From Fragilaria crotonensis (Eukaryota; Bacillariophyta; Fragilariophyceae; Fragilariales; Fragilariaceae): a stretch of 64,000 nt of DNA. The stretch spans positions 1 through 64,000 of the forward strand of contig JAKSYS010000062.1 of the NCBI GenBank assembly GCA_022925895.1, read 5' to 3'. Made by a program: the position numbers and the translations under genes. Shown here piece after piece: positions 2,662 through 26,818 of this stretch. Each line of letters opens with the position of its first letter. Position 1 is the first letter of the stretch. The notes beneath the pieces were generated by a model. It was not told the origin of the DNA. It was given only the letters and a program-made list of their open reading frames with translations, and searched no databases.

Positions 2662-2879
2662 ACGTTATATATCTGTAATCTTGCTACTTTCAAATCAACA
2701 CACTTTTTTATTCCAAAAATGATCGTTTCTATTTGTAGTAGGTTAATGATAAACGGTCCATTTTTAAACTACGTTTAAAAATTACTATATGTTTAATATA
2801 TCCTTTGGTGGCGCTAGAGATTACGTGGATTTAAACTTCCTTGTGGTCATCCAACCACTCTAAAATCATCAAGAAAGGA

Positions 2880-3608: not shown

Positions 3609-3626
3609 AAAACACGGTTAGGGCTA

Positions 3627-3666
3627 CATAATTGTTAAGAAATGTTAATCGTTCTTAACAATTATG
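3627..3666. terminator. 15-bp perfect inverted repeat between convergent genes
   Basis: CATAATTGTTAAGAA at 3627-3641 is matched by its exact reverse complement at 3652-3666, around a 10-nt loop. It lies where the + gene ending at 3608 meets the - gene ending at 3645, and the stop codon of the - gene falls inside it. A two-way 3'-end structure is the simplest reading; a tiny MITE remnant is possible. Confidence 0.45.
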
Positions 3667-7544: not shown

Positions 7545-8037
7545 CAGTTACGAATGACAAGGGGAAAAGAAAGAACAAAAGGGAGAAGGAGAGATCTGCA
7601 AGATTTTAATGACATCGAAAGTAAGAGATTGACTGTAGATTGTACACGAATGTAGTGGTGCTGCCATTGGTGACGTTTACAACTGTGGCGAGTTTTGGAT
7701 GAGAAGTCGACGTCAACATCCAAATCTAACAAGCATTGTCAGCGGGGTATACGTAGATATGCGCGTAGGCGTGTACGTACGAAAAATCTAGTATCAATAC
7801 ACTGTGTGGAGCGCAGAAACTCACTCCTAACCTCACATTTGCATCGACATGAAATGACCATGCTGAGTTTTGCAAGTGGTGTTGGCGAATAAAAAGACAA
7901 CAAGGAAAGTAAGTTGATGCTTAGTACATTTGTGACAGGACACCGCTAGCTGTGGCATTCCTCGCGGTAGCAGAAGCGCCGAGATTGACAAGGAAACTAT
8001 CCTGAGTCAAAGTACGGTTGATATCACGAGTTACAAC
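7545..8037. other. Intergenic stretch between divergent genes
   Basis: Upstream of the - gene at 7544 and the + gene at 8038, so it should hold both promoters. The only structure seen is the first copy of a 138-bp repeat from about 7935, which continues into the + coding region. No unit terminus (hairpin plus GAACCCC tail) is seen here, so the left end of the first array unit is not defined. Confidence 0.5.
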
Positions 8038-8330
8038 ATGGAAATGAAATGGGTGTGCAGTACAGTTGTTAACCAGGACACCGCTAGCTGTGACATTAGT
8101 CGCGGTAGCAGAAGCTCCAACCTCAACTTGGAACCCATCATGATTCATAGTACGGTTGATAGCACGTGTTCCAACAAGGAAATGAACGTGATTAGTAGTA
8201 CTGTTCTGAAAAAGGACCCTGCTAGCCAAGAGGAATGTCGCCGTAGCAGAAGATCCAACATCAAATTGGAAACCATCAAAAAACGTAGTACAGTCGTCAA
8301 AATAAAAACCAGTGCTTCAAAAAATGAAAT
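7935..8330. repeat. 138-bp direct repeat, three copies, running into a CDS
   Basis: The GCTAGC marker of each copy falls at 7945, 8083 and 8221, a spacing of exactly 138 bp (46 codons). Copies 2 and 3 are translated in frame at the start of the oxygenase-like gene (NQDTASCDISRGSRSSNLNL then KKDPASQEECRRSRRSNIKL). Copy 1 is upstream of the ATG. Identity falls from copy to copy. Confidence 0.75.
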
Positions 8331-9399
8331 CATGGGAAAGAGAGGATATCAACACCTATACAAATCAAGCAAAGCACCATCGAGCAAAAAAGTGCGCGAG
8401 GCATACAATGAATCTTTAAAAATTGAAAACAAAAAGAACAAGAAGGCGGCAAGACGCGATTATAAAAAGCAAAACAAGATAGGAAAACTGACCCTTGTTA
8501 AGGCATCGCCAGTGCACTGCATTTGCCCATTACTTTTGAAAAGCGGAACGCCAATTTTCTTCAGCGGAACGAGAGATAAGGTAATGAAGAATCTGAAACA
8601 GCACCGGAACGCACATGTGCTATCAGCAATTGAAAATCTCAAGGTTGTTGATACAGTGCTCGGTGCAAGAATGGAATCAGAAGGTGGGGACACTGTGTTC
8701 ACATTGATTCCACGGGAATATGCAATCGAAAAATTGACGCATGTGCATGAAACACTTCGATCACTATACGCATTGGATGGTTCGCAAACGAAAGCTGAAG
8801 TGAGAGGGAAGACGAGAGTGACTGTGGCGGAGGATGATGGAAAGTACATCACTGTGGGGTTAAAGCCAAATAGAGGTAGAAAAGGTATTTCCGAATCGTG
8901 GCCAAAAAAGTTGAGCAACGTTGACAAGAAAAAAATTTGCAAGCTGATTAGTACATGTCAGGATGTTGCCAAAGGATACGTGCCGGCAAATGAACTACGA
9001 GGATTGCAATTTGCGAAGATGATGGCACAGTGGCCAAATCTGAAAGGAGTGTCATCGCAGCAAATATGGGGAAGTCTTGCTTGTGGCAAGAACTATTACT
9101 TGAACACACATTTGGACGAGGATTTTTTTTATTCCTTGACAACAATTGCTTCCGCGTGGGGACTACGACAGGATATCGATCGGTACAGCATGGAAGCTGA
9201 AGTGTGCAATTACTTCACCTTTGCTGAGGAAGGGATAGCTGTCGCGCTCAGGCCAGGGGACATGCTTCTTTTCAACCCATTGTATCAACACTGTCTTTCG
9301 TCGCGAACATCCAATTATGAAAACAAGGATGTGTTTTGCTTGTCGTTGTACCTAAAGACTGCAGTGGTGGGAGGTAATAACAACAGTGTGCAAAAGTAG
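8038..9399 (+). CDS. HxD...H oxygenase-like protein of array unit 1
   Basis: An unbroken 453-aa frame starting at the ATG at 8038. Residues 1-95 are Ser-rich 46-residue repeats, followed by a basic Lys-rich stretch (about 95-150, nuclear-localisation-like). The C-terminal ~110 residues look like a double-stranded beta-helix Fe(II) dioxygenase: HLDED gives an HxD pair (H358, D360), then GIAVALRPGDMLLFNP and a distal His (H418) in YQHCLSSR. This pattern is known from 2-oxoglutarate/Fe(II) enzymes including the TET/JBP group; substrate and family assignment are inference. It converges on the helicase gene with a 95-bp gap. A second, broken copy sits in the same place relative to the helicase in unit 6, so the two genes travel together. 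Confidence 0.7.
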   Translation: MEMKWVCSTVVNQDTASCDISRGSRSSNLNLEPIMIHSTVDSTCSNKEMNVISSTVLKKDPASQEECRRSRRSNIKLETIKKRSTVVKIKTSASKNEIMGKRGYQHLYKSSKAPSSKKVREAYNESLKIENKKNKKAARRDYKKQNKIGKLTLVKASPVHCICPLLLKSGTPIFFSGTRDKVMKNLKQHRNAHVLSAIENLKVVDTVLGARMESEGGDTVFTLIPREYAIEKLTHVHETLRSLYALDGSQTKAEVRGKTRVTVAEDDGKYITVGLKPNRGRKGISESWPKKLSNVDKKKICKLISTCQDVAKGYVPANELRGLQFAKMMAQWPNLKGVSSQQIWGSLACGKNYYLNTHLDEDFFYSLTTIASAWGLRQDIDRYSMEAEVCNYFTFAEEGIAVALRPGDMLLFNPLYQHCLSSRTSNYENKDVFCLSLYLKTAVVGGNNNSVQK

Positions 9400-9494
9400 T
9401 TGTCAACCAATCATTAGTTCAACTTATTCTTTGGTGAATATATTTGGCCTCAATGGCAGCCATAAACAGGCAGAGACTGAACAACAATGCCTGT

Positions 9495-12400
9495 CTACCG
9501 GGACGCAGGTGTCATAAATGCTGTCTCCTGTGAGGCCAAAAACTTGGAAAATGATGCTTCTGAGGTGTAAATTTGTTCAACGTAAGCCTGGAAGGTACCT
9601 GTCACTTTTGCTCTGAGGAAGGTATGCGACAGTAATCGTCGCAGTCTGCCCTTAACTGGGCAGCTGTTGCTTTCGTGCTTCGTGGAACCGGCAGCGCCTT
9701 TAAAAACCCAACACTCGCAGCATGCTCGGTTGTTCAAATAATCTTTTTTAAAGGGACAAAGCTTGCGATCATGTGTACTCACACCACATGCGTAACACAT
9801 TTTCCATTGGAAACAAACTTGTTGGTTCTCTGGCAAGGACTTGCTACCTGGTCCTCTCAAGAGAGGTATTCCTCGACACGTGGGTTTCCCACACACAAGA
9901 CAGGCCGATGACAATTGGAGTAAGACGCGTCGCGAGGCACATTCATCCTTTCGGACTTGATGAATGCGGTTGGTTGCCTCGCTTTGGAGACTCATCAACG
10001 GAATGTTGCGACAAAAGTGGCAGGCTCCACAATTGTCTAACGTTTCTCTCCCAAACGAAGCCGACAAAATCTTGATCGCACAACCCCTCTGTCCTTGGGA
10101 GGTGTCAGATAACCAATCATGAACTCCACTCGATGTCATAACCGCTTTGAAGTTGCAATGGTCTTTTGAAGAAATAAAGTTCTCATTCAAAAGCCGAGTG
10201 TAGCGATGTTCATCATCCTTAGTTCGGTGATCGGACAATTTGTCGGGAACCGCGAATAACACTTGACCAAAAGAGGTTCGCATGTAGTTTCGCAATCGAC
10301 CGAACGCTTGCACAATCTGCATGGAATCATACAGATATCCTACGCAAACCAAATATCTGCAGTATGGATTTTCATTGCCGACCAAGCCCATGGTTGTTGA
10401 TATGAGGATGTCTAACTTTCCATTGCTCCATGCTTCGGCGGTTTCTTTCACTTCCTTGTGAGTGGAATCAGAAGAAACAAACTTGCATTTATACCGGGTG
10501 GTGGAAAGCTGCTCGAATAAAGTCCTGCCATCCTTCTTCTCGGCAACAACAACGTGAGCAGCACAACGTGGACCTGATAGTCCTCCACCTGAGTCCATCT
10601 TTTTCTGGACGAATCGGGCAGCGAGGTTTACGTACAGAGACGAAACCGCTACCTTTATCTTAAATCCGCTTGGAAACTTTCCGACAACATGATTCCCAAG
10701 AATAACTTTGACATCACTCATGTCATCAGCGTTGGACAATCCTAGTTGCTTTGTGAATTTAGAAACTGCAAACGTAGGCATTGATCCACTCAACATGACA
10801 ATGGGAATACCCAAACTTGGAAGTTTGGAATATACCTTGTACTTGTCTCGGAAACATGTCTCGGAAAGGATGGTGTGCGCTTCGTCTATTACAATTTTGT
10901 CGACGACATCCAACCACGACTTGAAAACTTCCCCGAAGTAATGGAACAAGTTGTTTAAGGCATCAAGGTTTAAAAACAGTAAACTCGGAAGACGTTCTTT
11001 CGTGTAGAGTCCTTCCGGCAACACACCATCAGAAGTGATGTCTTGCCCGGTGAAAACACGCATGTTGGAATCGAGTCCAAGCTTCTTAAAGGCTGCTGAA
11101 CATGTGGCGAACTGATATTCGGCCAGGAAGCGATACGGAGAAACATGGATGATGGTCTTCGTACTTTGGTTTGCGAGGACGCGAGCAATGGTTGGGATTA
11201 TGTAGCATTCTGACTTCCCTCACCAGGAGCTAGTAGAGCAACGCAATGCTGTGGCTTGGTGAAGGTCATACCATACCCAAACTCAACCAACTCTTTTTGT
11301 TGCAAGGAAAGGTAGTTGTGACCCTCTGGTGTTGAGGAAGTTGGATATCGGAGTTGCATTGCCGACCGCAGATTAGCCAAGGATAAAATATTCTGACATC
11401 TCGAGAATCCATATGATGTATCTCCTAAAGCAAAGTGATAGGCATTGAAGTGGGCCTCTTCTGAACCGACTCGTTCACTGGAATAGGTAGATGCATGAGT
11501 AAATGTTGAATGACCCATTTTGATGCTCCGATGGTGCTTGAGCACAAGTACTTGTGTTGCTCACCACCAGTAACAAAATTTGAGACGCAAGCCCAGAACT
11601 GACGAACCTGTGTCATGTCTGGTAATGACGACAAGTTGAAGAGATCCCGAATCACATGAGATGGTCCAAAATCTGATCGATTGACTCGCCTTGGAAAGAT
11701 TAATGATTGAGAGTCTTCATCTGAGAAAAGCTTCCATTGTTTTGGATCAGGGATCGAAACAACAAAAAATATCGGGAGATAATTGGTGGAAGCTTGCGTT
11801 CAACTTGTTTACACTTTCGTCGTGAAGCATTGGTGAAACCTTTCAATGATGTAAGGGAGTAGTAGATAGTATCATTGCTGTAAACGCAGTGAAACATTGA
11901 TGGTTCAACCAATTCGGTCATTCGTGCCGAGCCACCACCAAATCCATGAAAAGACATCTCGAGTTGTGCAGTTAAATAATCCAGATGCTCAAGAGGCAAG
12001 CACAAACCTTGCTTCCAAACTGAGTGAATATCGACAAGAGCAAGGTCCCCTGTGTCCTTGTCTACCCTTACCTTGACATTTGTTGCAAGGTCAACAATGG
12101 GTTCCCACCATAGCCCGTCTGCCAATTCAGTAATTGCATCCCGCATCAAGAACACTGTCCGAGGTACGATTCGAGACCATTCATCAAATAAGAAAGAATA
12201 TTGATCAACCATAATGTTGCCAACCGTATCAAGTGTTGTCTTTCTCCTTTTAGGCATGCGACGATGCATTTCACGAATTTGACGAACCATCGGTGACAAA
12301 ATGTGAATCACTGGTGATTCACGTACTGATTTGACAAGTGCAGGACCAAAATTGTAAATGACTGGTTGGAAAATGAACAGATAACGGAGCAAACGGCAGC

Positions 12401-13488
12401 CTTCAGAACTGATGAGATCTTTGAGAAGACAGAGGACACTGTGTCACAAGAGATCATGTTGATTTCTGAACCATTGGTTGAGACTCGGAAAGCAAACATT
12501 AAACAGAACTCTGCAACGAAGGGAAGAGATGCCACCGATTGAGGGACTTCAAGCAACAAGTCCTTCAAAAAGTAGGGCACTGCAAAGGCATTGCTTGTGT
12601 CAAAGCCTCTCGATGCAAAGAGACCTCGTCTGTAAGAAAAGGATAAAAGCTTTTTCAACTCTGGAAGCAAACTCCGTGGATCGTGTTGCATTGTGTAGGT
12701 ACAACGATGTGATATCTCTTCTATTTCACCACCTTCAAATGTTTGAAGTCCAGCGGAGATTGCCAGGAACCATCAATATATTTTTTTGCACAAACTTAAG
12801 GAGCCAATCCTCAGCATGCTTGTGGATTTGAACCAACAAGAACTCAGTTGATGAGCACGGTGATGAATGGATCGAAGAAAAGTCGGATTTTATCTTCTGG
12901 ACAAATTGTTTGCCACCACCGCATCCATGAATAAGGGGTGTAAACATATGTGTGTACGTATGATCCTGTTTTTCCCTTTTGGAAGAATAGGAAAAGCACA
13001 GCTCTTGCCTCACAATAATCAAATTGCTGTTTTGAATTGTGTGGTGATTCGTTGAAAAATGAAGTGACTTTAGCATGAGTCACATACCTGCCGCAGCAAA
13101 GCTTGATGAGATCAACTTTCTGTAGTTTTGAAGAATCACAACCCACAGTCTTGCAGTGTCGATTTGCATTTCCAATCTTTACAAAGGATTGACCACACAC
13201 ACAAGAAAATCCAGCATATGTTTTGCTGTCGCTCCGATACGGATCGATACTTCCCAAAGCCTTTGCATGAAGTAGTTCCTTTTTATATTCTTCAAGGAGA
13301 GAACGGACTGTCGAAAGCCTACTGTCCATACCATGTTTTTTCAGGTGAATTTGAATGGATCTCTCGTCTGACTGAATTGAAGCAGACCGAATACATTGTC
13401 GACAACCTAGACCAAACGGAGAGAATGTGAAAAGTTGCAAATGTGTCCCATCCGATGCGTTTCCCTTCTTGGTTGCAATCGACAGCAT
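9495..13488 (-). CDS. RecQ-like SF2 helicase, array unit 1, frame broken
   Basis: Reads leftward from the ATG at 13488. It begins with a Cys/His region (FSPFGLGCRQC ... HLKKHGMD) and a second Cys cluster (CVCGQSF ... RHCKTVGC). A long unrecognised middle follows, then a helicase core: QQKELVEFGYG (Q-motif-like), APGEG at the Walker A site, VIDEAHT (motif II), LSGSMP (motif III) and ILISTTMGLVGNENP ... QAFGRLRNYMR (motifs V-VI). The C-terminus is Cys-rich and holds a CCHC knuckle (CYACGVSTHDRKLC). The frame changes several times, including one right at Walker A where the next frame supplies KSE. The 9495-11063 part alone is 522 open codons. In order of parts it resembles fungal telomere-linked RecQ helicases. 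Probably nuclear and encoded by the repeat unit itself. Confidence 0.7.
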
Positions 13489-13562
13489 GGTACAACTTTA
13501 TTGTGATTGCCAAGGGATGAATGGTATGGAGTTTAAATTCATGGATACCAGAGTCTACAGAA

Positions 13563-13729
13563 GCAATCCGTAGCTCCCAATGCATATTTCCTTAAGTAAT
13601 CAGTGGCTCTTGATGCAGAAAAATGGCTCCCGATGCAAATTTGCCTAAGTAAAATGGCTCCTGATGTATCAAGTAAAAATATACATATTTGAGGAAAATT
13701 TATCTAGTTTGAACCCCGCCCCCTTAGGG
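13563..13729. repeat. Right terminus of unit 1: iterons, hairpin, constant tail
   Basis: Holds four copies of an iteron like GGCTCCYGATGC at intervals of about 30-40 bp. Next come a hairpin (TCAAGTA ... TATTTGA) and the constant tail ending GAACCCC then CCCCCTTAGGG. It lies just upstream of the unit 1 helicase start. The hairpin and tail recur at six other places further right; the iteron sequence is particular to this unit. Confidence 0.75.
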
Positions 13730-13734
13730 TTTTT

Positions 13735-13946
13735 TACACTAGTAGGTACTCGTACTAGCAGGTACTTGTACTAGTAGGTACTTGTACTAGTAGGTACTTG
13801 TACTAGTAGGTACTTGTACTAGTAGGTACTTGTACTAGTAGGTACTTGTACTAGTAGGTACTTGTACTAGTAGGTACTTGTACTAGTAGGTACTTGTACT
13901 AGTAGGTACTTGTACTAGTAGGTACTTTTACTAGTAGGTACTTGTA
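13735..13946. repeat. 16-bp minisatellite, about 13 copies (unit 2)
   Basis: Tandem ACTAGTAGGTACTTGT with few changes. It starts directly after the unit 1 terminus and a short TTTTTTACA linker, and leads into a ~190-bp stretch also found after the second minisatellite at 16195. It contains the palindromes ACTAGT and GTAC. Confidence 0.9.
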
Positions 13947-14300
13947 TGTGACAAATGCAGACAACAGTATGATGAATCAACTGTATTTCGTTTAAAAACT
14001 ACAGTATTGTACGTTACAGCGGTATGACACTGTACGTATTTAGATTTACTGGATGTCATACTCCACTTTTTTGGTGGAAAAGTGGCTACGCAAGAAGTTA
14101 TTACCAGAAAATAACACACGATGAGCTCTGTGCCTCCCTGTGTAGCTCCGAATGCACATTTCCTTAAATAAACAGGCAGCTCCGGAGGTTCAAAATTGGC
14201 TCCGGAGCTAAATTCTCTAAATAAAGTTGCTCCGGAGGCCTCAAGTAAAAATATGTATACTTGAGGATTTTTTATCTACTTTGAACCCCTTTTCCTTAGG
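13947..14300. repeat. Unit 2 body and right terminus
   Basis: About 190 bp of non-coding sequence (from TGTGACAAATGCAGACAACA), then CTCCGGAG iterons (three), then the hairpin CCTCAAGTA ... TACTTGAGG (9-bp perfect stem), then the tail GAACCCCTTTTCCTTAGG ending about 14300. Nearly the same sequence forms unit 5 (16195-16548). No coding sequence is seen, so with its minisatellite this is a short non-autonomous or truncated unit. Confidence 0.8.
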
Positions 14301-15456
14301 AGAAGGAGCAGATGACCGAGCAAACCGCTGCCTTCAGAAGGGAAGAAACTTTGGAAAACAAGGAGGACACAGTGTCACAGGAGATCATGGAAATTCGAGA
14401 ACCATCAGTTCTCACTCGGAATGGGAACATGAGACAAAACTCCACGGCAAAGGGATGAAAGGCAACCGATGGGGGAACTTCCAGCAGAAGATCTTTCAAA
14501 AAATAGGCAACAGCAAAATCATCATGGTCATCAAAACCCTTGGATGCAAAAAGTCCTCGTCTGTAGGCAAACGAGAGGAGTTTCTTGAGTTCTGAAAGTA
14601 GACTTGTCGGGTCATGCTGCATTCTGTAGGTTTTTCCTTGTGACACATCATCAACTTCACCTGCTTGCAATGTCTGTAGCCCAGCACGGAGATTCCCTGG
14701 TACCATCAATATATTCTTCTGCGCAAAGTTCAGAAGCCATTCTTCAGCTTGCGTGTGGATTTTTGTAAGAAGTAACTCTCCGCATGGACTTGGTGGTGAA
14801 TGGATCAAGACAAAGTCAGTTTTGATCTTTGCAATGAATTGTTTACCACCGCCACATCCAGTAATTAGGGGAGTGTACATATGTGTGTAGGTGTGATCTT
14901 GTTTTTCTCTTAGTGGGAGAAAGGGAAGTAGAGTATCTCTCGACTGACAGTAGTCAAATTGCTGCGTGATGTGAGGCACATCATTGAAAAAAGATGTGAT
15001 TTGAGCCTGGGGTACGTATCGGCCACAGCAGAGCTTGATGAGATCAACATTCTTCAAATGAGAAGCCACGCAACCTTTCCTCCCGCAATGTCGAATTGCA
15101 TTCCCCTTTTTCAAAAATGATGAGCCACAAGTGCAGGAATAGCCGACAAATATTTTGTTGTCAATCCGAAATGGTTCAATTGTTCCAAAAGCCTTAACAT
15201 TGTCTAGCTCCCTTTTATATCCTTCAACAAGGGAGCGGACTTCTGTCACACTGCTGTCCACACTATGCTTTTTCAGGTGACGACGAATGTATTTCTCATC
15301 AAACTCGAGTGTTGTAGACTTTGTACATAGAAGACAGCCTAAGCCAAATGGTGAGAAGGTGAAACATTTTCGAATCGACACCGGATTAGTTGAAGATGGA
15401 AGATCTTCAAGAACATATTGCACCTTTCGTTTCTTTGTTAGAGTGATCGGAGGCAT
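14301..15456 (-). pseudogene. Helicase N-terminal fragment, unit 3 (truncated)
   Basis: The first 386 residues of a third helicase copy, unbroken from the ATG at 15456. It has the same start as the two long copies: FTFSPFGLGCLLC ... RRHLKKHSVD, then CTCGSSF and RHCGRKGC, then TYTHMYTPLITGCGGG and FAQKNILMVPGNLR. It is cut off at about 14300, exactly where the unit 2 right terminus begins, so the helicase core is missing. Because the joint lies in a coding region, truncation came before or during the joining to unit 2. The intact frame suggests the truncation is recent. Confidence 0.8.
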
Positions 15457-15504
15457 GACAAAGGTATTTTATGTGGTGATGTATTCCGAGAGGAAAGAGC
15501 CAAA

Positions 15505-15700
15505 GGGCTGTTTCAACAGTACTGAAACCCACGGGGGATCTCTGTAGCTCCCAATGCACATTTCACTAATTAAACAGGCAGCTCCGGAGGTTCAAAATTG
15601 GCTCCGGAGATCAAATCTCTAAATAAAATTGCTCCGGAGGCCTCAAGTAAAAATATATGTACCTGAGGATTTTTTATCTACTTTGAACCCCTTTTCCTTA
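15505..15700. repeat. Right terminus of unit 3, first copy of 196-bp duplication
   Basis: From GGGCTGTTTCAACAG through CTCCGGAG iterons, hairpin and GAACCCCTTTTCCTTA. It is repeated directly at 15701-15896 with about two mismatches. It lies immediately upstream of the unit 3 helicase fragment, the position the terminus has in units 1 and 6. Confidence 0.85.
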
Positions 15701-15896
15701 GGGCTGTTTCAACAGTACTGAAACCCACGGGGGATCTCTGTAGCTCCCAATGCACATTTCACTAATTAAACAGGCAGCTCCGGAGGTTCAAAATTGGCTC
15801 CGGAGATCAAATCTCTAAATAAAATTGCTCCGGAGGCCTCAAGTAAAAATACATGTACCTGAGGATATTTTATCTACTTTGAACCCCTTTTCCTTA
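15701..15896. repeat. Unit 4: 196-bp minimal unit, terminus only
   Basis: A direct second copy of 15505-15700. The joint is in TTAGGG: the tail CCTTA of unit 3 runs into the internal GGGCTG of the next unit, so GGG is shared at the joint. With no more than iterons, hairpin and tail, this is the shortest member of the array. Confidence 0.85.
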
Positions 15897-16194
15897 GGTA
15901 CTTGTACTAGTAGGTACTTGTACTAGTAGGTACTTGTACTAGTAGGTACTTGTACTAGTAGGTACTTGTACTGGTAGGTACTTGTACTAGTAGGTACTTG
16001 TAGTAGTAGGTACTTGTACTAGTAGGTACTTGTACTAGTAGGTACTTGTACTAGTAGGTACTTGTACTAGTAGGTACTTGTACTGGTAGGTACTTGTACT
16101 AGTAGGTACTTGTACTAGTAGGTACTTGTACTAGTAGGTACTTGTACTAGTAGGTACTTGTACTAGTAGGTACTTGTACTAGTAGGTACTTGTA
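15895..16194. repeat. 16-bp minisatellite, about 19 copies (unit 5)
   Basis: Same ACTAGTAGGTACTTGT unit as at 13735, with more copies. It begins inside the tail of unit 4: CCTTAGG and the repeat's TAGGTAC share TAGG, so this is again a microhomology joint. Confidence 0.9.
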
Positions 16195-16548
16195 TGTAAG
16201 AAATGCAGACAACAGTATGATGAATCAACTGTATTTCGTTTAAAAACTACAGTAACTTACGTTACAGCGGTATGACACTGTACGTATTTAGATTTACTGG
16301 ATGTCATACTCCACTTTTTTGGTGGAAAAGTGGCTACGCAAGAAGTTATTACCAGAAAATAACACACGATGAGCTCTGTGCCTCCCTGTGTAGCTCCGAA
16401 TGCACATTTCCTTAAGTAATCAGGCAGCTCCGGAGGTTCAAAATTGGCTCCGGAGCTAAATTCTCTAAATAAAGTTGCTCCGGAGGCCTCAAGTAAAAAT
16501 ATTTATACTTGAGGATTTTTTATCTATATTGAACCCCTTTTCCTTAGG
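16195..16548. repeat. Unit 5 body and right terminus
   Basis: Near-identical to 13947-14300 (a few substitutions and small indels): non-coding body, CTCCGGAG iterons, hairpin, and tail ending CCTTAGG at 16548. Immediately to its right is unit 6, starting CGCCTGTAACTAAGC. Confidence 0.85.
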
Positions 16549-16649
16549 CGCCTGTAACTAAGCATGTTTGGAATCACTTTTTTGGTTTTTTCTCATTAAT
16601 CCTGCATCGCTTCTGTGTTGCCCTTTAATGTTTGTACTCTTGTAGCGAA

Positions 16650-17914
16650 ATGGACGCTGCTCACCATGATGTACCAGGTAGCCGCAGAGCCGAGACCAAT
16701 GACTGGGGGAACATGATTAATGCGACGGCATACATGCTTCCTCCTATCATTGAGAAAATGGACACAGCTAGTCTGGACATCGGGAATGGTGGCAGAGCCC
16801 AGATCCACATGAATACACACAGCAAAGACAACTCGGATGATGATGTAAGTGATGACAATCCCAATCCCAAGAAACGGGGGTTCCAGCACGTCTACAAGTC
16901 GAAAACGAATTCGAGTCACAGAGTGATGGTTGCACATGAAGCATCCATCACAAAAGGTACGCCAAATAGCAAGCTGGGCAAACGTAGAGATTATAAAAAA
17001 TCAAAGAAAATTGCCGGCCTGCAGGAAGTGTCACCTTCGAATGTGCATGCATTGGGAAGGTCATTCTTGAGCACGCGCCCTGTGTTTTATAGTGGGACAC
17101 CCAGGAGAAGTCTCCCCAATCCCATTGACAATGGCATAATGCTTTCAGCAATGGAAGATCTAAAGGTAATCGACACCATTTTTGGAGCCAGAATGGAGTC
17201 TGCTGCTGGTGACACTGTGTTTACCTTGATCCCCGTCACGATGCAATCCATAAAATGACACATGTGAAAAGACAATTGCTTCTCTGTATGCCTTAGATGA
17301 TGCGAAGCGAGCAGCTGAAGTGCGTGGAAAGACTCGAATCACAGTGGCGGAAGACAATGGCAAGTATGTGACAGTGGGCTTGAAACCAAACCGAGGCTCT
17401 GTGGGCGTTTCTGAGATCTGGCCGCAGAAATTGAACATTGCTGACAGGAACTCAATTAGAAAGTTAATGGCACGTTTGAGGAAGCTGCCAAGGGCTACAT
17501 TCCATCAAACGAACTCCGTGGTCTGCGCATTGCACAAGTACTTGGTGAGTGGAAGGAGATCAGTGGAGTGTCCTCCAATCCAATCTGGGAAGTCTTGCTT
17601 GTGGGCGGAACTACTATTTGAATTCCCACGTTGATGAGGATTTCTTTTATTCTTTGACAACCGTTACTTCTGAGCACGGACTGCAGCAAGACATTGACAG
17701 GTACAGCATGGATGCTGATGTCAGTAACTATTTCACTTTTGCTGAACAAGGAATCGCTGTTGCATTGAGACCAGGTGACATGCTGATTTTCAATCCGCTG
17801 TATCACCACTGTTTGTCCTCTCGTACTTCTGCATTTCAAAGTGTGGATGTCTTTTGTTTGTCCTTGTACCTGAAGACGGCTGTGGTTGGTAAGAATGATA
17901 ATAGTTTGAATTAG
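16650..17914 (+). pseudogene. HxD...H oxygenase-like gene of unit 6, frame broken
   Basis: Second copy of the gene at 8038. The chosen ATG is at 16650 (MDAAHHDVPGSRR). It matches copy 1 through KKRGFQHVYKSK, the basic stretch, FGARMES..GDTVFTLIP, GKTRITVAEDNGKYVTVGLK and the C-terminal NSHVDEDFFYSLTTV ... ALRPGDMLIFNPLYHHCLSSR. The HxD pair and distal His are all kept. The frame changes twice (the three parts end near 17258, 17634 and 17914). The N-terminal 46-residue repeats of copy 1 are absent. It converges on the unit 6 helicase gene across the 65-bp repeats. Confidence 0.75.
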
Positions 17915-17994
17915 CTCTGTTTTAGTAGTTGTGTGTTTACAGGTGCAAACAATCTGGATGATTGTTACGCACTTCATGGTTACTTGATAATATT

Positions 17995-18262
17995 CCAGTG
18001 CCCCGCGTTCCCGGGTTGACGGACAGTAAATCTGTGCGGGGCTACTCGAACAAAACATTCCAGTGCACCGCGTTCCCCGGTTGTCGGACAGTAAATCTCT
18101 GCGGGGCTACTCGAACAAAACATTCCAGTGCACCGCGTTCCCCGGTTGACGGACAGTAAATCTCTGCGGGGCTACTCGAACAAAACATTCCAGTGCACCG
18201 CGTTCCCCGGTTGACGGACAGTAAATCTCCGTGGGGCTACTCGAACAAAACATTACAGTGCC
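17995..18262. repeat. 65-bp tandem repeat, four copies
   Basis: Units containing CACCGCGTTCCCCGGTTG, GACGGACAGTAAATCTC and GGGGCTACTCGAACAAAACA, at a spacing of 65 bp. They lie exactly between the 3' ends of the convergent oxygenase-like and helicase genes of unit 6. The equivalent gap in unit 1 (9400-9494) lacks them. Confidence 0.9.
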
Positions 18263-18283
18263 TTCCAACAACTTAGCTCTTCT

Positions 18284-21200
18284 CTAAATAGAATTATTTT
18301 TTGTATTGTAAGTACTATCAATCACAGCCATGAACTCACAGAACGAGGTCGAGGAAGTGTAGATACCCTCAAGGAAGTCCTTGAATGATCCCTTAACCTT
18401 GGTGTTAACAAAATGATGTGACAACAACCGCCTCAACCTACCCTTTACTTCACAATCTGTCTTTGCGTGATGTTTAGAGCCTGGTACCTTTTTGAAAACC
18501 CAACACTCACAACAAGCCACATTATTCAAATAGGTCTTATCAAAACAAAGCTGGCGGTCATGAGAACTCACACCGCATTGATAACAGTTTTTCCAGAGGA
18601 AACAACAACCTTTATTCTCAGGCAGTGATTTGCTGCCCTTCCCATTCAATAAGGGGATTCCACGACAATAAGTCTTGTTGCACGCAAGACAACACAAAGC
18701 GAGCTTTTGAAGGACTCGTTCAGTCGCTTGTTCGTTTCGCCTTTCAGTTGCCATCCGTTTGGTGGCCTCAGCCTGAGCATTATGGGTTGGAATGTGGCGA
18801 CAAAAATGGCAAGCACCGCAATTCTCCATCTCTTTTCCAAATGACTGTGACATAACCTTCAATGCACAGTCACGGTTTCCTGATGCTGCATCCATGGTCC
18901 AGTCACATACACCGCCCGAAGTCATTGTTTGTCTAAAAAGTGCATGATCCCCCTCAGATACAAGGTTTTCATTCAGAAGCCTTGTGAATCGCTGTTCATC
19001 GTCCTTGATTCTTCGTTTTGACAAGGCTTCTGGTGCCGCAAAGAAGATTTGGCCGCTAGGAATTCTCATGTACTGTCGAAGGCGACCAAACCCTTGAATA
19101 ACCTGCATAGCATCGAACAGGTACCCCGCGCAAGCAACGAATCGGCAAGCAGGGTTTTCATTCCCAACTAATGCAATCGAGGTTGATATCAGGATGTCGA
19201 ATCCTCCCATGCCCCATTTTTTAGCAACAGCCTTCAAATCTTCTGCGGGGGTATCAGACGATACGAAGACACAATTTACAGATTTGGATGTAATGCGCTG
19301 TTCAAGAAGTTCTCCATCACACTTGTCAACAACAAAGATATGAACTGCTCCCACACCCTCATGCACACGATGAATAGCAAAACTGGCAACTTGGTGTATG
19401 TATCTCGGTGTGACTGAAAATTTGATTCGAATCCATGAGGAAAATGTCCAAAAGGACCCGCCGTGAATAATCTTGATGTCATTCATCTGTTTGTCACGAG
19501 ACAAACAAAGTCGCATTGCAAATTTAGAAAGAATGAACAAAGGGACTGATCCACTCAATGCCACAATCGGAATCCCAAGAACAGCAAGTCTCCAATAAAC
19601 CTGATACTTCTCCCGAAAGCTTAATTCTGTAAGAAAAGTATGGACCTCATCAATAACAATCTTATCCATGACGTCAATCCATGACTTGAATGTTTCAAAA
19701 TGAAACGTGAACAAGTTGAAGAGAGCATCCAGGTTGAGAAAGAGAATGTTTGGGAGATCCTCCTTGTTGGAAAGCTCATCGGGTAGCAATCCAACATTGA
19801 TGTCCCCGCCAGTGAAGATGCAAGTGGAAATGCTTGTTCCAAAGCCGACTTTGTCAAAAGCAGTGGTTGCATTATTGATTGGTAGAGGCCAAAAATTATA
19901 GGGCGACACATGAATTATCATTTTGCTTCTTTGATTGCCGATCCGTCTTGCAATGGTGGGAATAATGAAAACTTCAGATTTTCCTTCACCAGGGGGAAGA
20001 AGTCCAAAGCAATGTTGTTTCTGCATTGAGTCATTGTGACAACCGTATCCAAACTCAACAAGTTCCTTCTGTTGAGATGAAAGATAGTTGTGACCATCTG
20101 ATGAAATAGCCTTCGGGTACCGTAGCGACATTGCCATCCGAATATCACCCAATGATAGTTTGCACAATTGGATTTTTGACATCTCGTATGATGTGTCCCC
20201 GATGGCGAAGTGATAAGCATTGAAGTGTGATTCTCAGCCCCAAGTCGTTTGCTTGAATAAGCAACACCATGTGTCATCTTTGAGTGCCCCATTTTTGATG
20301 CCGCCACAGAACTTGCTGTGGATGTCAAAAGCCTTTCCATCCTCATCATCACCAGTAATGAAATTCGATACACAAGCCCAAAACTGTCGAATCTGCCGCA
20401 TATCGGGTGATGAATCCAAATTGAAAATATTCCTGATCAAATTTGGAACACCAAAATTTGAAGGTGTTCTCCGCTTTGGAAAAATGAAAGGGAATCGGAT
20501 TGCTCAAAAGATTTACATTCGCATTGACGAGAGATCGGTACAACAAAAAGTATCGAGTGATAACAGGAGGGAGTTTTTGCTCGACTTTCTTGAACCGACG
20601 ACGAGAAGAACTGTTAAAACCCTTCAGTGACGTCATGGAGTAATAAAAGCATCATTGCTGTACACGCAGTGGAACATAGTCGGTTCTGTCAACTCTCTCA
20701 TCCTTGCCGATCCTCCTCCAAAACCATGAAACGCCATCTTCAACAGTGCCATAAAACAATCCAATTGATCAACGAGGAATGAAAGTCCAACATTCCAACA
20801 GGGAGTGACATCAAGCAACGAAATGTCTGCCGTGTCATCATCGACACGGATTCTGATAAATGTTGATGGATCAACCACAGGCTCCCACCAGGAACCATCA
20901 GCCAAATGAGTTAATGACTCACGCATCAAGGTGACAGCTGTGGGGGACTATGCGTGACCAGATGTCGTATGGAAATGCGTGTTGGTCAACAATGATATTT
21001 CCACCTGAGTCAATCATAGTTTTTTGCCTTTTTGGTAGTCGTTCGTGCATTTCTCGTATTTGTCGAACCATCGGTGACAGAATGTGGAGTACCGGAGCCT
21101 TGCGAATAGATGACACAAGCAAATCTCCAGAATGGGTGGATGACTGCTCTGAAAAAGAGCAGATGACGGAGCATACTGCTGCTTTCAGAAGGGATGCTAC

Positions 21201-22312
21201 CTTGGAGAATAACGATGACACAGTGTCACAGGATATCAGAGAGATTTTTGATTCCTGAGCAGATACACGAAAAGGAAACATGAGACAGAATTCCACCGCA
21301 AAGGGATGCGTGGCAACTGATGGTGGAACTTCAAGCAAAAAATCTTTCAAAAAATATGCGACTGCAAATTCATCGCTTTCATCAAAACCCCCTTGATGCA
21401 AAAAGGCCCTTGCGATAGGAATAGGATAAAAGCTTCTTCAATTCAGGTAGTAAGCTGGATGGATCATGCTGCATCGTATAAGTCTTCCTTGTGACATACC
21501 ATTGACTTCACCAGCATCAAAATTTTGTAGTCCAGCGGAGATTCCTGGCACCATCAAAATATTCTTCTGCGCAAAATTCAAAAGCCAATTTTCAGCTTGG
21601 TTATGAATTTTGATCAGAACTGTCTCATGCATTTGGCTCGGTGGAGAATGGATAGAAATGAAGTCATTTTTTATCCTTCTTACAAAGTCTTGTGGACAAA
21701 CACAACCATCAATGATGGGGGTGTACATGTGTGTGTACGTATGGTCGTGCTTTTCCCTGGGTGGAAGGAAAGGAAGCAAAGCCGCTCTTGCCTTGCAGTA
21801 ATCAAATTGCTGCGTGATTCGAGGTACAGTGTTGAAGAACTTGTCAATTTGCACCTCTGAAACAAATTGACCACAACACAATTTGATGAGCTCAACCTTC
21901 TGGAGACAAGACGGATCACAACCCAACCTTGTGCAGTGACGGCGTGCGTTGTCCTTTCTTGGAAAAACTTCACCGCAGATGCATGAAAATCCCTTATAAG
22001 TACTGTTGTCAATTCGAACGGCTCAATTGTTCCAGCAGCCTTTATGACTTCCAGTTTTGTTACAAAAGTATCAAAAAGGGAACGGATAGACGCGGCCCTG
22101 CTGTCAAAACCATGTTTTTTGACATGCTCACGGATGCATCTCTCATTGATCTGGATAGACACTTTTTTTGGGCAGAGTCGACACCCAAGTCCAAAGGGAG
22201 AAATGGAAAATATACCTTGAAGTGATGCAGGGGGGTGATCAAGTTGATCAGATGCTTGCAAAGGAGACATGTTGTTGGTAGTCACCTCTTGTATCTCAAG
22301 GGTGGTCATCAT
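18284..22312 (-). CDS. RecQ-like SF2 helicase, array unit 6, frame broken
   Basis: The best helicase copy. Its 632-codon 3' part (20182-18284) is open and shows: SSQQKELVEFGYG, Walker A as LLPPGEGKSEV, motif Ia-like IIHVSPYNFWPL, motif II VIDEVHT, motif III ALSGSVP, then ILISTSIALVGNENP and QVIQGFGRLRQYMR (motifs V-VI). A Cys cluster CGACHFCRH follows, then a CCHC knuckle CYQCGVSSHDRQLC. The upstream part, with frame changes, gives the N-terminal fingers (FGLGCRLCPKK ... REHVKKHGFD). I take the ATG at 22312; the frame is open back to 22402. The full length would be about 1,340 residues. Predicted ATP-dependent DNA helicase acting on the unit's own DNA or on chromosome ends (inference). Confidence 0.75.
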
Positions 22313-22620
22313 GATGTGATAATGGCGCTTGTACCAGGAGTGCCGAGTGCATAGTTCAAAAATTGGGCGGCAAAAACATTTTGACCATACCTGGTTTAAC
22401 ATACGTAAAGACTATCATTCGATGAGTTGATGCACCTAAATTGCGCCATATTTTTGTACGAGCAAATTGTACGGATAGCGTTTTCCCTCCGGACGTAGTC
22501 GTTCCTAAGTAAAAAACCCTCCGGACGTATAAAATTCCCCTCCGGACGTACAAATTTCCCCTCCGGCCGTATCAAGTAAAAGCATCTATACTTGAGGACA
22601 TTTTATCTAATTTGAACCCC
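22176..22620. repeat. Right end of unit 6, first copy of 446-bp duplication
   Basis: Includes the 5' end of the unit 6 helicase gene and its upstream region: four CCTCCGGACGTA-type iterons (22493-22572), hairpin TCAAGTA ... TACTTGA and GAACCCC. It is repeated at an offset of exactly 446 bp with no difference that I could see. Here the tail stops after GAACCCCT and runs into AGTCGAC of the next copy, without the TTCCTTAGG end. Confidence 0.9.
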
Positions 22621-22621
22621 T

Positions 22622-23078
22622 AGTCGACACCCAAGTCCAAAGGGAGAAATGGAAAATATACCTTGAAGTGATGCAGGGGGGTGATCAAGTTGATCAGATG
22701 CTTGCAAAGGAGACATGTTGTTGGTAGTCACCTCTTGTATCTCAAGGGTGGTCATCATGATGTGATAATGGCGCTTGTACCAGGAGTGCCGAGTGCATAG
22801 TTCAAAAATTGGGCGGCAAAAACATTTTGACCATACCTGGTTTAACATACGTAAAGACTATCATTCGATGAGTTGATGCACCTAAATTGCGCCATATTTT
22901 TGTACGAGCAAATTGTACGGATAGCGTTTTCCCTCCGGACGTAGTCGTTCCTAAGTAAAAAACCCTCCGGACGTATAAAATTCCCCTCCGGACGTACAAA
23001 TTTCCCCTCCGGCCGTATCAAGTAAAAGCATCTATACTTGAGGACATTTTATCTAATTTGAACCCCTTTTCCTTAGGG
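22622..23078. repeat. Unit 7: second 446-bp copy plus complete tail
   Basis: Direct copy of 22176-22620, here followed by the complete tail GAACCCCTTTTCCTTAGGG. It contains only the first ~45 codons of the helicase finger region, so it is another left-truncated unit. It is the innermost unit; unrelated sequence starts at about 23079. Confidence 0.9.
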
Positions 23079-24060: not shown

Positions 24061-26818
24061 TAGTGTCTAAAGACCCGGACCACTTGCCTTAATTAACCCC
24101 GTCACTTGCCTTAATTAACCCCGTCAATACTTTCCGAGATTATGTAGAGATATTACTGCCTTGCACTCAAAAATGGTGTTGACCATGACGGTCAATATGA
24201 ACATGTTGACTCTAATGAAAGCACATTGAACTAATTATATTAGGCTTAGAACTCATCAAGGTGTGCATGGTTGCGAGCCAGGTGGTTCAAAAAGCACCGT
24301 TTCCCATTTTTGGTAGCACAAAGATAGATGATTTTTCCATCATCATCACAATCCGAGCATTGCCATGTCGTCTTCTTCTGACACTCCTTGCACCTCCCTT
24401 GATACCTAAATGTGGTTTTCTCACCTTTACTATTCTTAAGGCGCTTCACAGGAGTTAAATGAGTGAGCACACCGGCGCGCGGCCCTCCGCTTTCAAGTGC
24501 CCTCATGCAGGCATCTTGAAACGACATCGAATTTGGTGAGGATCGGGGTTGAGCTGATGGACGGCCTCTACTACCATACATGTTGTCAATCAATTCCTCA
24601 GCCAGCACAGAATAGAACTCTTTTTGATTCATTTGGACTCTTGGAGTGTTCCTCATTGCAGAAAACACCAACCACGTATCGATCATCGAAAAAATCGACA
24701 AGTTCACACGCGTTGACCAATCCTTTGTTTCAATCTTCTTCTCCATACGAAGGTCATCTTGACGGAGTCTATTGTGCTTGTCAATTGCCCCACAGGAGGT
24801 AGTGTAATAAATTTCTGCAATTTTTGGTTGTGCAATTGTAAACATCACTTGCTCTGGAGGTGCATTCGGGGTCGCATCAACTTGCCTCCATCGGCAACGT
24901 TCGTACGGAGCTCCAGCTTCGAAAGACCCGGCTGTGGAAATAAAGTACCGACGCTCCCGATCCATCCACACCATTGCCCCCAATTCCGGACTGTCTTCTG
25001 TTGCATTGGACCGAAGAAGCTCCACACTTGTCAGGAAGGTTTTGGGGTAGCCGCGTGTCGCAGTTTTAACAACTCCAATGAATCGCAGGCCATTGCGATA
25101 CAATTCCTTAGCAGCACCAACAGAAGCAAAGTAGGAATCAGCACAAACAATACGATTTGTTCCAAACCAAGGCGATACAACATGTTTAAGCACATTGGTA
25201 CCGTGAAGCAGACTTTCTTCGTTGTCCCCAAGCACCTCATCCTCCGAACCCGGCAGGTTAACACCTTTGACAAGTTTGAGTCGCAGCATGACTCCACTTC
25301 TGCCGCACGCTGCGTTTTGGATCTCGCAGCCATTTTCAGGCTTTCGGTCAATAGCAACATATTGAGGGAGGCCATGATTGATCCAATGGCCTCCCTGCCC
25401 ATACCAGCGACTCATACTCTCATCAACACAGATGAGCTCGGACGGATTGAAATAGTTGGCTCGATGCTCGTTAAAGTTTTTAACAAAGTCATCCACCAGC
25501 TTCCACCTATACTCCTCGGACGACTCACCTTCACCAGGAGCATCAGGTTGATTACTCCACCTCATGGAGCTGAAGAGGTCTTTGAACCTGTGCTTTGACA
25601 TACCAGTCAACCCAAACTGCGGTGCCGGTCGATACTTTGACCATGCTGTTGTGTTCCACAATGATGACCTTGTCGTGAACTCAAATTTTGTCATGAGAAT
25701 GAGGATGCCAAAGAATTTGAGGACCTCGCTTGCGGTTGTCTCTTTCAGTGAAGCTTTATTAAGCTCAACATTTGTCCAGTGGACCATATCTGACAACTGC
25801 TTTGGCGGAAACAAGAGCAAAAAAAATTCGAGCGGCGAAATATCTTGTGTTGCAACTCTATTTCCTCCAGGAACCAAAACATCACCGACAGAATTGCGGA
25901 TGCTCCACATTCGAGCAGGAACATTACCATTCAGTGGTAGGTCGTTTGTTGATGCCCTGACCCATTCCATGCCATGAACAGTGGCAACAATCTGAGGTGA
26001 TGCAGCAATATTATCATGCTCGGTGCCTGCTTGCTCCTCTACATCCTCTTGAGGGAATTCTTCCGCACCAACAGCAAAACCAGCCGGCGCAACTATTTCA
26101 CTTACATTGTTCTCGTTAATGTTCAAAGGTGTTGGGTTGGGATCATTCACTTCAGGGGCTGCAGAAGTTGGATTTGTTGCAGCAACTGCAACGGAGTTTT
26201 GATTCACGCTTTCAGTCCCGAGTCCATTACCTTCGTTGGGAATGCTTGTAACGTGTCCGGCCTTCACTGACCTTGAATTCAATACAGTTGTCTTAATTGT
26301 ATTGCCACCAAGGTAATAGTTTGCCGTGATCAAAGTCACGGCACGCTTCTTGCCGGATGATGGGGTCGTATCAACGCGACAGACCACTCCTTGACGAACT
26401 TGGTTTTGCGTTGCTTCCGTATCTTCGATGACACTCAATCTGGGAAGTCACATGGATAGCTTTCGCGCACCTTTGCACCAAACTGGAAACGAGGATCAGT
26501 TGCGCTCATTTTGAGATCGATTGATGAAGTTGGAGATGAGCAGTGACGGCATGAATATCATGGTCAGGAGAATTCCCAGAACCCAAAATTCACGAAAAAA
26601 ATTAAAGCTCCAGAAATTCTTTAATAACTCAATTACAAACAACTTCCACCGATTGCCTATTTAGACCATGCAACCATTTACTGTTCCAAGGAGATTGGCC
26701 AAGTTTGGAGGCCAACGGACCTTCTCGAAGATAAGGGGAAGCATATCCGAGATTGGCAAATACGGGGTTAATTAACCCCAAATGGGGTTAATTAACCCCG
26801 TCGGGCCTTTAGACACTA
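24061..26818. mobile_element. piggyBac-family DNA transposon with paired ends
   Basis: Outer inverted ends TAGTGTCTAAAG[A/G]CCCG occur at 24061 and (reverse complement) at 26818. Inside each are two copies of TTAATTAACCCC (left) or GGGGTTAATTAA (right). The innermost pair, TTAA then CCCCGT at 24115 and CGGGG then TTAA ending 26771, fits the piggyBac rule of TTAA target plus CCC-starting ends. The outer pair could be a larger TIR or an older insertion. It holds one transposase gene on the - strand. Confidence 0.75.
24246..26438 (-). CDS. piggyBac transposase (DDE_Tnp_1_7), 730 aa
   Basis: Unbroken 730-aa frame from the ATG at 26438. Residues 1-180 are variable and acidic. The piggyBac core starts near 200 (SPLEFFLLLFPP). 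The catalytic triad is visible as D339 (ICVDESMSRW), D434 (VCADSYFAS) and D553 (CGAIDKHNRLR). The C-terminus carries a Cys/His zinc-binding region (CKECQKKTTWQCSDC ... RCFLNHLARNH), the family's usual end-binding module. Length and motif order match active family members, and it lies within recognisable ends, so the element may be intact. It would catalyse cut-and-paste transposition at TTAA sites. Confidence 0.92.
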   Translation of the reverse strand: MSVIEDTEATQNQVRQGVVCRVDTTPSSGKKRAVTLITANYYLGGNTIKTTVLNSRSVKAGHVTSIPNEGNGLGTESVNQNSVAVAATNPTSAAPEVNDPNPTPLNINENNVSEIVAPAGFAVGAEEFPQEDVEEQAGTEHDNIAASPQIVATVHGMEWVRASTNDLPLNGNVPARMWSIRNSVGDVLVPGGNRVATQDISPLEFFLLLFPPKQLSDMVHWTNVELNKASLKETTASEVLKFFGILILMTKFEFTTRSSLWNTTAWSKYRPAPQFGLTGMSKHRFKDLFSSMRWSNQPDAPGEGESSEEYRWKLVDDFVKNFNEHRANYFNPSELICVDESMSRWYGQGGHWINHGLPQYVAIDRKPENGCEIQNAACGRSGVMLRLKLVKGVNLPGSEDEVLGDNEESLLHGTNVLKHVVSPWFGTNRIVCADSYFASVGAAKELYRNGLRFIGVVKTATRGYPKTFLTSVELLRSNATEDSPELGAMVWMDRERRYFISTAGSFEAGAPYERCRWRQVDATPNAPPEQVMFTIAQPKIAEIYYTTSCGAIDKHNRLRQDDLRMEKKIETKDWSTRVNLSIFSMIDTWLVFSAMRNTPRVQMNQKEFYSVLAEELIDNMYGSRGRPSAQPRSSPNSMSFQDACMRALESGGPRAGVLTHLTPVKRLKNSKGEKTTFRYQGRCKECQKKTTWQCSDCDDDGKIIYLCATKNGKRCFLNHLARNHAHLDEF

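Follow-up and report, generated by a model that had tools for sequence, protein, structure and literature searches.

Telomere-facing arrays of a candidate one-ended element with a putative recombinase-helicase gene in the diatom Fragilaria crotonensis

The window, 64,000 nucleotides from Fragilaria crotonensis (GCA_022925895.1, contig JAKSYS010000062.1), begins at a chromosome end. Its contig is called C592 here; other contigs of the same assembly, which comprises 881, are labelled likewise. Positions 1–471 (+) are telomere, (TAACCCC/TAACCC)n, and 41.8 copies of a 53-bp subtelomeric satellite follow (472–2659). The next stretch is an array of units with full right ends at 13728, 14300, 15702, 15898, 16548 and 23077, each of them a C-rich stretch followed by CCTTAGG. 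An earlier note had let the array start at 13563. This is merely where the right terminal region of unit 1 begins (13563–13728, +), with four GCTCCTGATGTA-family repeats, AAGTAA motifs, an inverted pair and the tail CCCGCCCCCTTAGG, which ends at 13728. Unit 1 itself, the most distal one, is far longer (2660–13728, without a defined left limit). It also holds an oxygenase-like gene for 355 amino acids, open and with an HxD...H signature (8332–9399, +), and a gene with zinc-finger, tyrosine-recombinase-like and RecQ-like helicase parts, as read from relatives, that is interrupted by stops (9495–13497, −).

The other units, all on the plus strand, are shorter to very different degrees. Unit 2 (13729–14300) consists of a 16-bp minisatellite and the right terminal region with its tail, and unit 5 (15899–16548), built in the same way, is 97% identical to it over 563 bp. 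Unit 3 (14301–15702) is cut within the helicase gene, of which it keeps an N-terminal part of 390 amino acids (14296–15468, −); at its left joint a relative runs on leftward and has GG exactly at the joint. Unit 4 (15703–15898) comprises only the final 196 bp and repeats in tandem, at 99%, the last part of unit 3. Unit 6 (16549–23077) carries an oxygenase-like gene that is broken (16629 to roughly 17914, +), a 65-bp repeat (17992–18261), CTCCGGACGTA repeats and an interrupted recombinase-helicase gene (18284–22411, −). The RecQ-like SF2 helicase part of the latter is open over 649 amino acids (18284–20233, −), with a DEAD match at E 8e-8 and a Helicase_C match at E 3e-4, just under its cut-off in Pfam. 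Where unit 6 has its left joint, CAGG stands in the intact copy at C411:1664. The left cuts thus lie where they had been reported: in the minisatellite at 13729 and 15899, in the helicase gene at 14301, in the upstream region at 15703 and before the oxygenase-like gene at 16549. Seven units had been counted, all with the same hairpin and tail, and six of them do carry the full tail. The seventh right end, at 22620, breaks off after GAACCCC. It is not an independent unit: a 446-bp stretch is exactly duplicated in tandem here (22176–23067, +; 22176–22621 against 22622–23067, 100% identity), and this extra partial end belongs to the left copy.

The terminal motif recurs in the genome beyond chance. 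Sites matching GAACCCCTTTTCCTTAGG number 34 when as many as 2 mismatches are allowed, as opposed to 4 for the reversed control; for CCCGCCCCCTTAGG, with a single mismatch allowed, there are 79 as opposed to 2. The constant right end is real; its proposed hairpin structure is not borne out. Across 20 end families no pair was changed on both sides, and paired cells (82.7%) equal the shuffled mean (82.3%), so the “hairpin” should rather be termed a conserved sequence motif. The pattern used for the ends requires CCTTAGG and hence misses trimmed ends. A looser search was made by reading six stretches in full (C592 1–26 kb, C754 1–20, C490 1–16, C23 1–34, C411 1–40 and C121 72–89 kb). It yielded, as judged by reading, 34 terminal motifs, of which 30 end intact, 1 differs by a single base and 3 lack the end (22620 in the window, C23:13673 and C121 near 80.45 kb).

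The ends within a contig point in one direction. The constant ends face the centromere and the truncated ends the telomere, as had been proposed from the window; all 19 multi-end contigs have a single orientation, and the genome lists of GAACCCCTTTTCCTTAGG and CCCGCCCCCTTAGG sites contain no mixed contig. Among 31 contigs compared, the contig end lay nearer on the distal side in no more than 21 (P 0.07). The joints lie mostly at GG and not at random eroded points, GG being absent at 10 of 37; a G comes next after CCTTAGG at 40 of the 73 unique joints. Terminal blocks are common to different chromosome ends.

The element appears to encode one large protein with a zinc-finger-like N-terminus, a tyrosine recombinase, a RecQ-like helicase and a cysteine-rich C-terminus. 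An open copy of the gene, a frame of 1,324 residues, lies on C490. For the helicase, PF00270 and PF00271 were matched, and its copies sit in telomeric contigs. A structure search with the 995-residue model of a relative returned RecQ helicases, including BLM and RECQL5, and other SF2 helicases; it was filled by the helicase part and carries no information on the recombinase part. For the latter, the candidate catalytic residues are conserved among relatives as in tyrosine recombinases (R 42/42, K 41/41, R 46/46, H 46/46, Y 46/46), while the position of the box II His is held by T, R, V, I or L. The predicted fold of this middle part is of the tyrosine recombinase catalytic type, with low confidence: the two models have a mean pLDDT of 63.3 and 57.6, and much of the Arg-His-Tyr part falls below 50 in both. 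By sequence, no significant match to a recombinase was obtained in PDB profiles, Pfam or PHROGs. In hhalign against Xer, Cre and lambda Int the best probability was 4.4, and 1.6 with more relatives, and the Xer scores were not clearly over those of unrelated controls. The overlap used by tyrosine recombinases is usually longer than the 2–3 bp shared core of the present joints. No relatives were found in viral_contigs.

It seems to us somewhat probable that the units are the remains of a one-ended mobile segment whose recombinase exchanges chromosome ends at a fixed signal, with no copying of RNA. The only defined end would be the right terminus, in which four repeats peculiar to the family are followed by a conserved inverted AAGTAA motif and then the C-rich stretch ending in CCTTAGG; the other end of the element would be the chromosome end itself. 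The encoded protein would bind the repeats of its own family, cut at the tail and exchange strands with almost any GG, best with AGG followed by G. Between two arms, a single crossover would move everything from the tail to the telomere onto the acceptor, which would lose all DNA on the telomere side of its GG. If the reaction took place within one arm, the following unit would lose its left portion. Either route would set a constant right end directly against a unit truncated on its left. An exchange in the opposite orientation would give dicentric and acentric products, and only telomere-facing arrays would therefore survive. The helicase may serve in unwinding or branch migration. Unsystematic inspection revealed no reciprocal crossover product and no circle. 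Against the exchange also speak the weak models, the missing sequence match, the short shared core, the box II position, the joints without GG, the trimmed ends, the tail-less joints inside units, the interstitial-looking copy on C273 and the weak tendency of the distal side towards the contig end. That ends might be capped or extended by a process based on DNA or recombination had already been suggested as an alternative, for which there is now a candidate enzyme. The structure of the joints, their preference for GG, the single direction of the arrays, a block shared by two ends and the conserved residues of catalytic type are observations, and the recombinase-type fold comes from a low-confidence model; that this protein makes the joints, and what the repeats and the helicase do, is inferred.

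Repair of broken ends has to be weighed against such an exchange. Broken subtelomeres could be healed by microhomology end joining or break-induced replication, the donor usually breaking at its tail because this is a fragile or nicked site, and the protein being only a passenger or the nuclease. Overlaps of 2–5 nt, as found at the joints, are typical of such events, and terminal blocks shared by several ends are in line with them, as are the unit interiors that are sometimes joined without a tail (C411:15384 and C121 near 73.6 kb). The trimmed end on C121 near 80.45 kb is joined via five shared bases, ATCTA, and looks like microhomology joining; because of it we gave this explanation more weight and the recombinase less. 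Ordinary joining, however, is expected to trim the tail more often and to use other microhomologies. The donor is instead an intact tail in 30 or 31 of the 34 terminal motifs read in the six stretches, and the acceptors share only GG. We consider this explanation rather unlikely.

A reverse transcriptase acting in trans is improbable in our judgement. An RNA ending in ...CCUUAGG would pair, through its two or three terminal bases, with a broken chromosome that exposes a CC(T) 3′ end, and would be copied, the truncations being aborted copies or erosion. Synthesis primed at a free 3′ end is in keeping with the terminal GG or AGG overlap and with truncation on one side only. HeT-A, TART and TAHRE and the telomeric Penelope-like elements (Athena, Terminons) likewise line up at chromosome ends in a single direction, are truncated to variable degrees and turn their constant end to the centromere; the head-to-tail diatom arrays resemble them in all these respects. 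The genome also contains 111 RVT_1 matches. None of them lies in the six stretches and none is listed on C592, in line with the earlier note, which had found no reverse transcriptase. Weak matches do occur on end-bearing contigs: C121:42865, which sits between two ends, C722:134351, and others on C125, C271, C273, C300, C413 and C508. They look like a dispersed element, because the profile stretch they span is matched dozens of times on contigs that lack ends. The nearest case, on C722, lies 3 kb from an end on its distal side and shares the strand of the tail, yet it scores 30–32 bits in a broken frame, and the surrounding frames contain no other Pfam domain; having examined it we raised the weight of the RNA explanation slightly. 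Also in contrast to the HeT-A and Athena types, the diatom ends show neither poly(A) nor a signal of RNA structure, and their chromosomes carry telomerase-type TTAGGG/TTAGGGG repeats. A ribozyme or structured RNA at the ends was rejected, Rfam having given 0 families in 138 kb and the hairpin no covariation. The joints, unlike those of Terminons, are free of telomere repeats: the hexamer is absent, on either strand, from the first 20 bases of all 73 unique joints, and the stretches scanned contain a single, short interstitial telomere run between units (C411:23104–23131). Between the ends C23:13673 and 31503, about 18 kb without a recognised end intervene, subtelomeric DNA included; satellite related to the 53-bp one of the window lies at C23:2157–2433 and 31598–31924. 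Copying of RNA would, moreover, leave the recombinase domain unexplained. With telomerase-type repeats, one interstitial run, joints mostly at GG and no RNA signal, the HeT-A-like reading from which the analysis started is not supported.

An ordinary two-ended transposon inserting into its own copies is very improbable. At least one copy looks interstitial, that at C273:33564, whose nearer contig end is 33.5 kb away and the farther one 155 kb, and the 196-bp repeat at 15504–15898 can be read as a nested insertion. Copies in both orientations and with two defined ends, the case named beforehand as contradicting growth at chromosome ends, were however not found; none of the 19 multi-end contigs is mixed, and the distal units of C23, C411, C490, C592 and C754 showed no left end in common. 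Nested insertion was rejected for a further reason. Of the 19 joints in the six stretches that have an intact relative, 5 have the missing left half somewhere on their distal side, and only one, the tandem repeat at 15702, has it immediately next to the supposed insert, adjacency being judged by reading. Helitrons combine Rep (HUH) with a Pif1-type helicase, terminate in CTRR and insert at AT; the terminus CCTTAGG and the target GG do not fit, and the general Pfam scans contained no Rep family. An assembly artefact, i.e., collapsed repeats or chimeric contigs, is conceivable with 881 contigs and repetitive ends but hardly credible, since the same joints recur on separate contigs (C411/C121, C588/C783, C273/C578, C300/C665 and C349/C703) and joints at GG are not expected from misassembly.

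Exchange of chromosome ends by a recombinase would have relatives in several quarters. Phage integrase genes lie beside att sites with several arm-type repeats, and integron cassettes stand head to tail in one orientation. The diatom candidate recombinase gene similarly adjoins a multi-repeat site, and its arrays are head to tail; the acceptor, in contrast, would be nearly any GG, and the product a terminal truncation with transfer of a chromosome end. Crypton and Starship elements have two ends and reside inside chromosomes, and in Starships the recombinase gene sits beside one terminus and is read inward. The diatom element shares this arrangement and the short common sequence at its joints, but has one terminus, with the telomere as its other end. 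In the Pfam scans the diatom protein has no recombinase match. The terminal direct repeats of CryptonS measure 5–6 bp and are mostly TATGG, and the text of the Crypton paper does not contain the word helicase (PMC3212892).

A RecQ-like helicase gene repeated at chromosome ends, with many truncated copies, is described in reports on Agaricus bisporus (PMC7473861) and Mycosphaerella graminicola (PMC4522978). The diatom gene resembles these fungal telomere-linked helicases and the yeast Y′ elements in both respects, and a weak OrsD-like N-terminus (E 0.38) in one of its relatives is a further likeness. Apparent distinctions are that the diatom helicase is attached to a domain of recombinase type and that its units close in a fixed terminus, the joints being mostly at GG. 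We suggest, tentatively and with more doubt than conviction, a class of one-ended elements that swap chromosome tips at GG, a site-specific terminal translocation, to which the fungal genes may belong. Literature pairing telomere-linked helicases with a tyrosine recombinase was not found, and a text that mentions Crypton, RecQ and telomere together treats them as separate items; subscription papers and preprints lay largely outside this search. We know of no agreed job for telomere-linked helicases, present as they are at many chromosome ends. If the proposal is true, they would gain a testable activity, the fungal ones may be recombinase-helicases and not plain helicases, and it would be shown how arrays that look like HeT-A can arise without reverse transcription. 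A selfish element moving by exchange of chromosome tips would also shape the diversity of diatom subtelomeres. As to the second gene of the units, the oxygenase-like protein has no Pfam match at E 0.1 and no PDB match below E 0.04; it belongs to a large family with mostly unnamed relatives.

The repeated units at this chromosome end share a constant right end, the tail (CCTTAGG), which faces the centromere; their truncated left sides face the telomere. Genome pattern searches for two end types, each run against a reversed pattern, yielded 34 places versus 4 for the first and 79 versus 2 for the second. The fetched stretches contain 91 full-motif ends on 31 contigs, a count in which four pairs 14 bases apart are each entered twice. 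There, the 19 multi-end contigs (79 ends together) are all unidirectional, like the array of the earlier note, and neither pattern list holds a contig with ends on both strands. Among the contigs with at least two telomere 21-mers (C23, C427, C490, C592 and C754), all have inward-facing ends except C427, for which none is listed. C411 starts with telomere-associated repeats. The expected telomere-facing side is nearer the contig end in 21 of the 31 contigs (P 0.07), many of which are fragments; taken alone, this position is only suggestive of telomeric placement. The copy at C273:33564 adjoins another repeat-like gene and appears to be interstitial.

Grouped at an alignment-score threshold of 0.8, the terminal regions form 20 end families, with a good alignment over the terminal 63 bases. 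All of them finish in an unchanged CCTTAGG, though the search pattern required it. A looser motif without this requirement was run on six stretches (C592 1-26 kb, C754 1-20, C490 1-16, C23 1-34, C411 1-40 and C121 72-89 kb; 153 kb). It gave 51 matches, 30 with the intact end. By inspection, true termini account for four of the other 21: C754:13121 has one base changed, and three lack the intact end (window 22620, C23:13673 and C121 near 80.45 kb). The remainder are chance. Four short, regularly spaced repeats precede the tail, similar within a family and dissimilar between families. The fourth repeat scores 0.70 against the others of its own end, 0.59 against those of other families and 0.49 against shuffled sequence (0 of 20,000 permutations), a contrast reduced by automatic windows that were misframed in several families. 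The terminal inverted pair, read as a "hairpin" in the earlier note, shows no compensatory change among the 20 families.

What the tail is joined to was examined by seeking, for each end, a relative of the sequence on its right that continues leftward without the tail. Such relatives have GG exactly at the position of the tail's GG in 29 of 36 unique joints (P 3e-31; 5.2% expected). With a larger library, in which other best relatives were chosen, it was 27 of 37 (P 3e-27). The intact relative of the 16548 joint reads CAGG. Of the 27 GG joints, 13 have A at -3 (P 0.016), and positions +1 and +2 are enriched in G; other positions are not significant given the number tested. Inspection of the ten non-GG joints revealed four with GG one or two bases rightward, three in tandem repeats, one whose relative has the same tail, and two true misses (C121:84419 and C754:15168). 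At most joints the overlap measures 2 to 5 bases. On the donor side, therefore, the joint nearly always lies at a single fixed base; on the acceptor side it usually lies at GG.

In phage integrases and Starship captains, the recombinase gene adjoins a terminus with several binding-site-like repeats. The units appear to be built alike: beside their repeat-bearing terminus lies a predicted zinc-finger, tyrosine-recombinase-like and RecQ-like helicase gene (recombinase-helicase), and we infer that its protein makes the joints. A crossover of the tail with a GG on another chromosome arm would move a whole tip; one with a GG in the next unit would remove that unit's left part. Both outcomes would leave a constant right end beside a left-truncated unit, as is observed. 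One-way arrays would need no special targeting device, because exchange in the wrong orientation would create a dicentric chromosome. Since the chromosome ends carry telomerase-type repeats, there is no evident need for a telomere substitute. Some observations fit this recombinase less well, however. Confidence in the predicted structures is low around the catalytic Arg, His and Tyr, and the common core is short for tyrosine recombinases. About one quarter of the joints lack GG at the exact position, a trimmed end is linked to its neighbour by ATCTA, tail-less joints occur within some units (e.g., C411:15384), and one copy looks interstitial. Unsystematic inspection identified neither reciprocal crossover products nor circles.

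Microhomology joining would explain the joints, too, terminal GG included, if the donor was mostly cut at the tail. RNA copied by a reverse transcriptase supplied from elsewhere would likewise account for the terminal GG pairing. The units themselves, as the earlier note had it, seem to lack such an enzyme: none of 111 genome matches to the Pfam profile RVT_1 falls within the six stretches. Weak matches (24-33 bits) occur on other end-bearing contigs. The one at C121:42865 lies between ends at 29065 and 57786; C23 has a strong match 146 kb inward. A broken RVT_1 gene on the tail's strand (C722:134252-134875; match at C722:134351, 3 kb distal to the tail) adjoins a recombinase-helicase fragment; no other Pfam domains were found beside the broken frame. 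Further weak matches are on C125, C271, C273, C300, C413 and C508. All the weak ones fall in a single stretch of the profile, which is also where dozens of matches on contigs with no listed end fall. Simple nested insertion as a general rule is spoken against, because the lost left half lies directly beside the presumed insert at only one, a tandem repeat, of the 19 joints with an intact relative (six stretches, 32 ends).

Whole blocks are shared between ends. C754:433-10445 and C490:247-10243 have 10,023 bp in common at 99.6% identity, from a minisatellite near each telomere to the final tail base. Beyond it the two differ: the next unit in C490 is truncated within the helicase gene and resembles window 19883-22621 at 96%, and C754 continues with other repeats. 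C411 and C121 have five proximal ends in common and differ distally; C588 and C783 share one acceptor carrying different end families.

The putative working of the units resembles that of tyrosine-recombinase elements. Because the units lack a second end and flanking target halves, however, we do not assign them to Crypton or Starship. Their location is that of fungal telomere-linked RecQ helicases (PMC7473861, PMC4522978). Whether the latter possess a recombinase domain is the most useful question raised here; in the literature searched, we found no paper joining them with tyrosine recombinases.

C592 measures 149,592 bp in a genome of 62.1 Mb and 881 contigs. A repeat scan of its first 64 kb, the window, detected telomere repeats (TAACCCC/TAACCC) over 471 bp at the start, directly followed by 2.2 kb of a 53-bp satellite. 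Of the seven units previously counted from 13563, six right ends stand (13728, 14300, 15702, 15898, 16548 and 23077); the one at 22620 is a product of an exact 446-bp duplication. Nor does unit 1 start at 13563: it extends far leftward, with an oxygenase-like and a helicase gene. An oxygenase-like HxD...H protein is encoded at 8332-9399 and again at 16629 to about 17914 (plus), convergent with the recombinase-helicase gene. Its relatives number 181; 120 of them were listed, mostly unnamed or "hypothetical". A second, different one (C754:2286-4691, plus), also convergent, gave no match in a Pfam scan. Unit 1 holds additional uncharacterised genes distally (7065-7547 and 3645-6849, minus; 2835-3608, plus), with no confident Pfam match among the frames scanned. 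Just proximal to the array lies a transposase gene (24246-26447, minus; DDE_Tnp_1_7, E 3e-44, 733 residues open), which we take to be of the piggyBac type. Farther inward are a MULE transposase gene (57860-60817, plus; E 6e-12, weak SWIM finger, 985 residues open) and a pair of mutually inverted 43-bp satellite arrays (61004-61299 and 61377-61696).

At C588:8561, C588:12139, C754:12757 and C783:10420 one or two additional copies of the 14-bp end GCCTTCTCCTTAGG come after the tail. These copies may represent units of which just the final 14 bases remain, or may have been left behind by exchange that took place at the tail more than once. An interstitial run of three to four telomere repeats at C411:23104-23131 adjoins a unit cut within the recombinase-helicase gene, as though the cut had at one time been healed by telomere formation.
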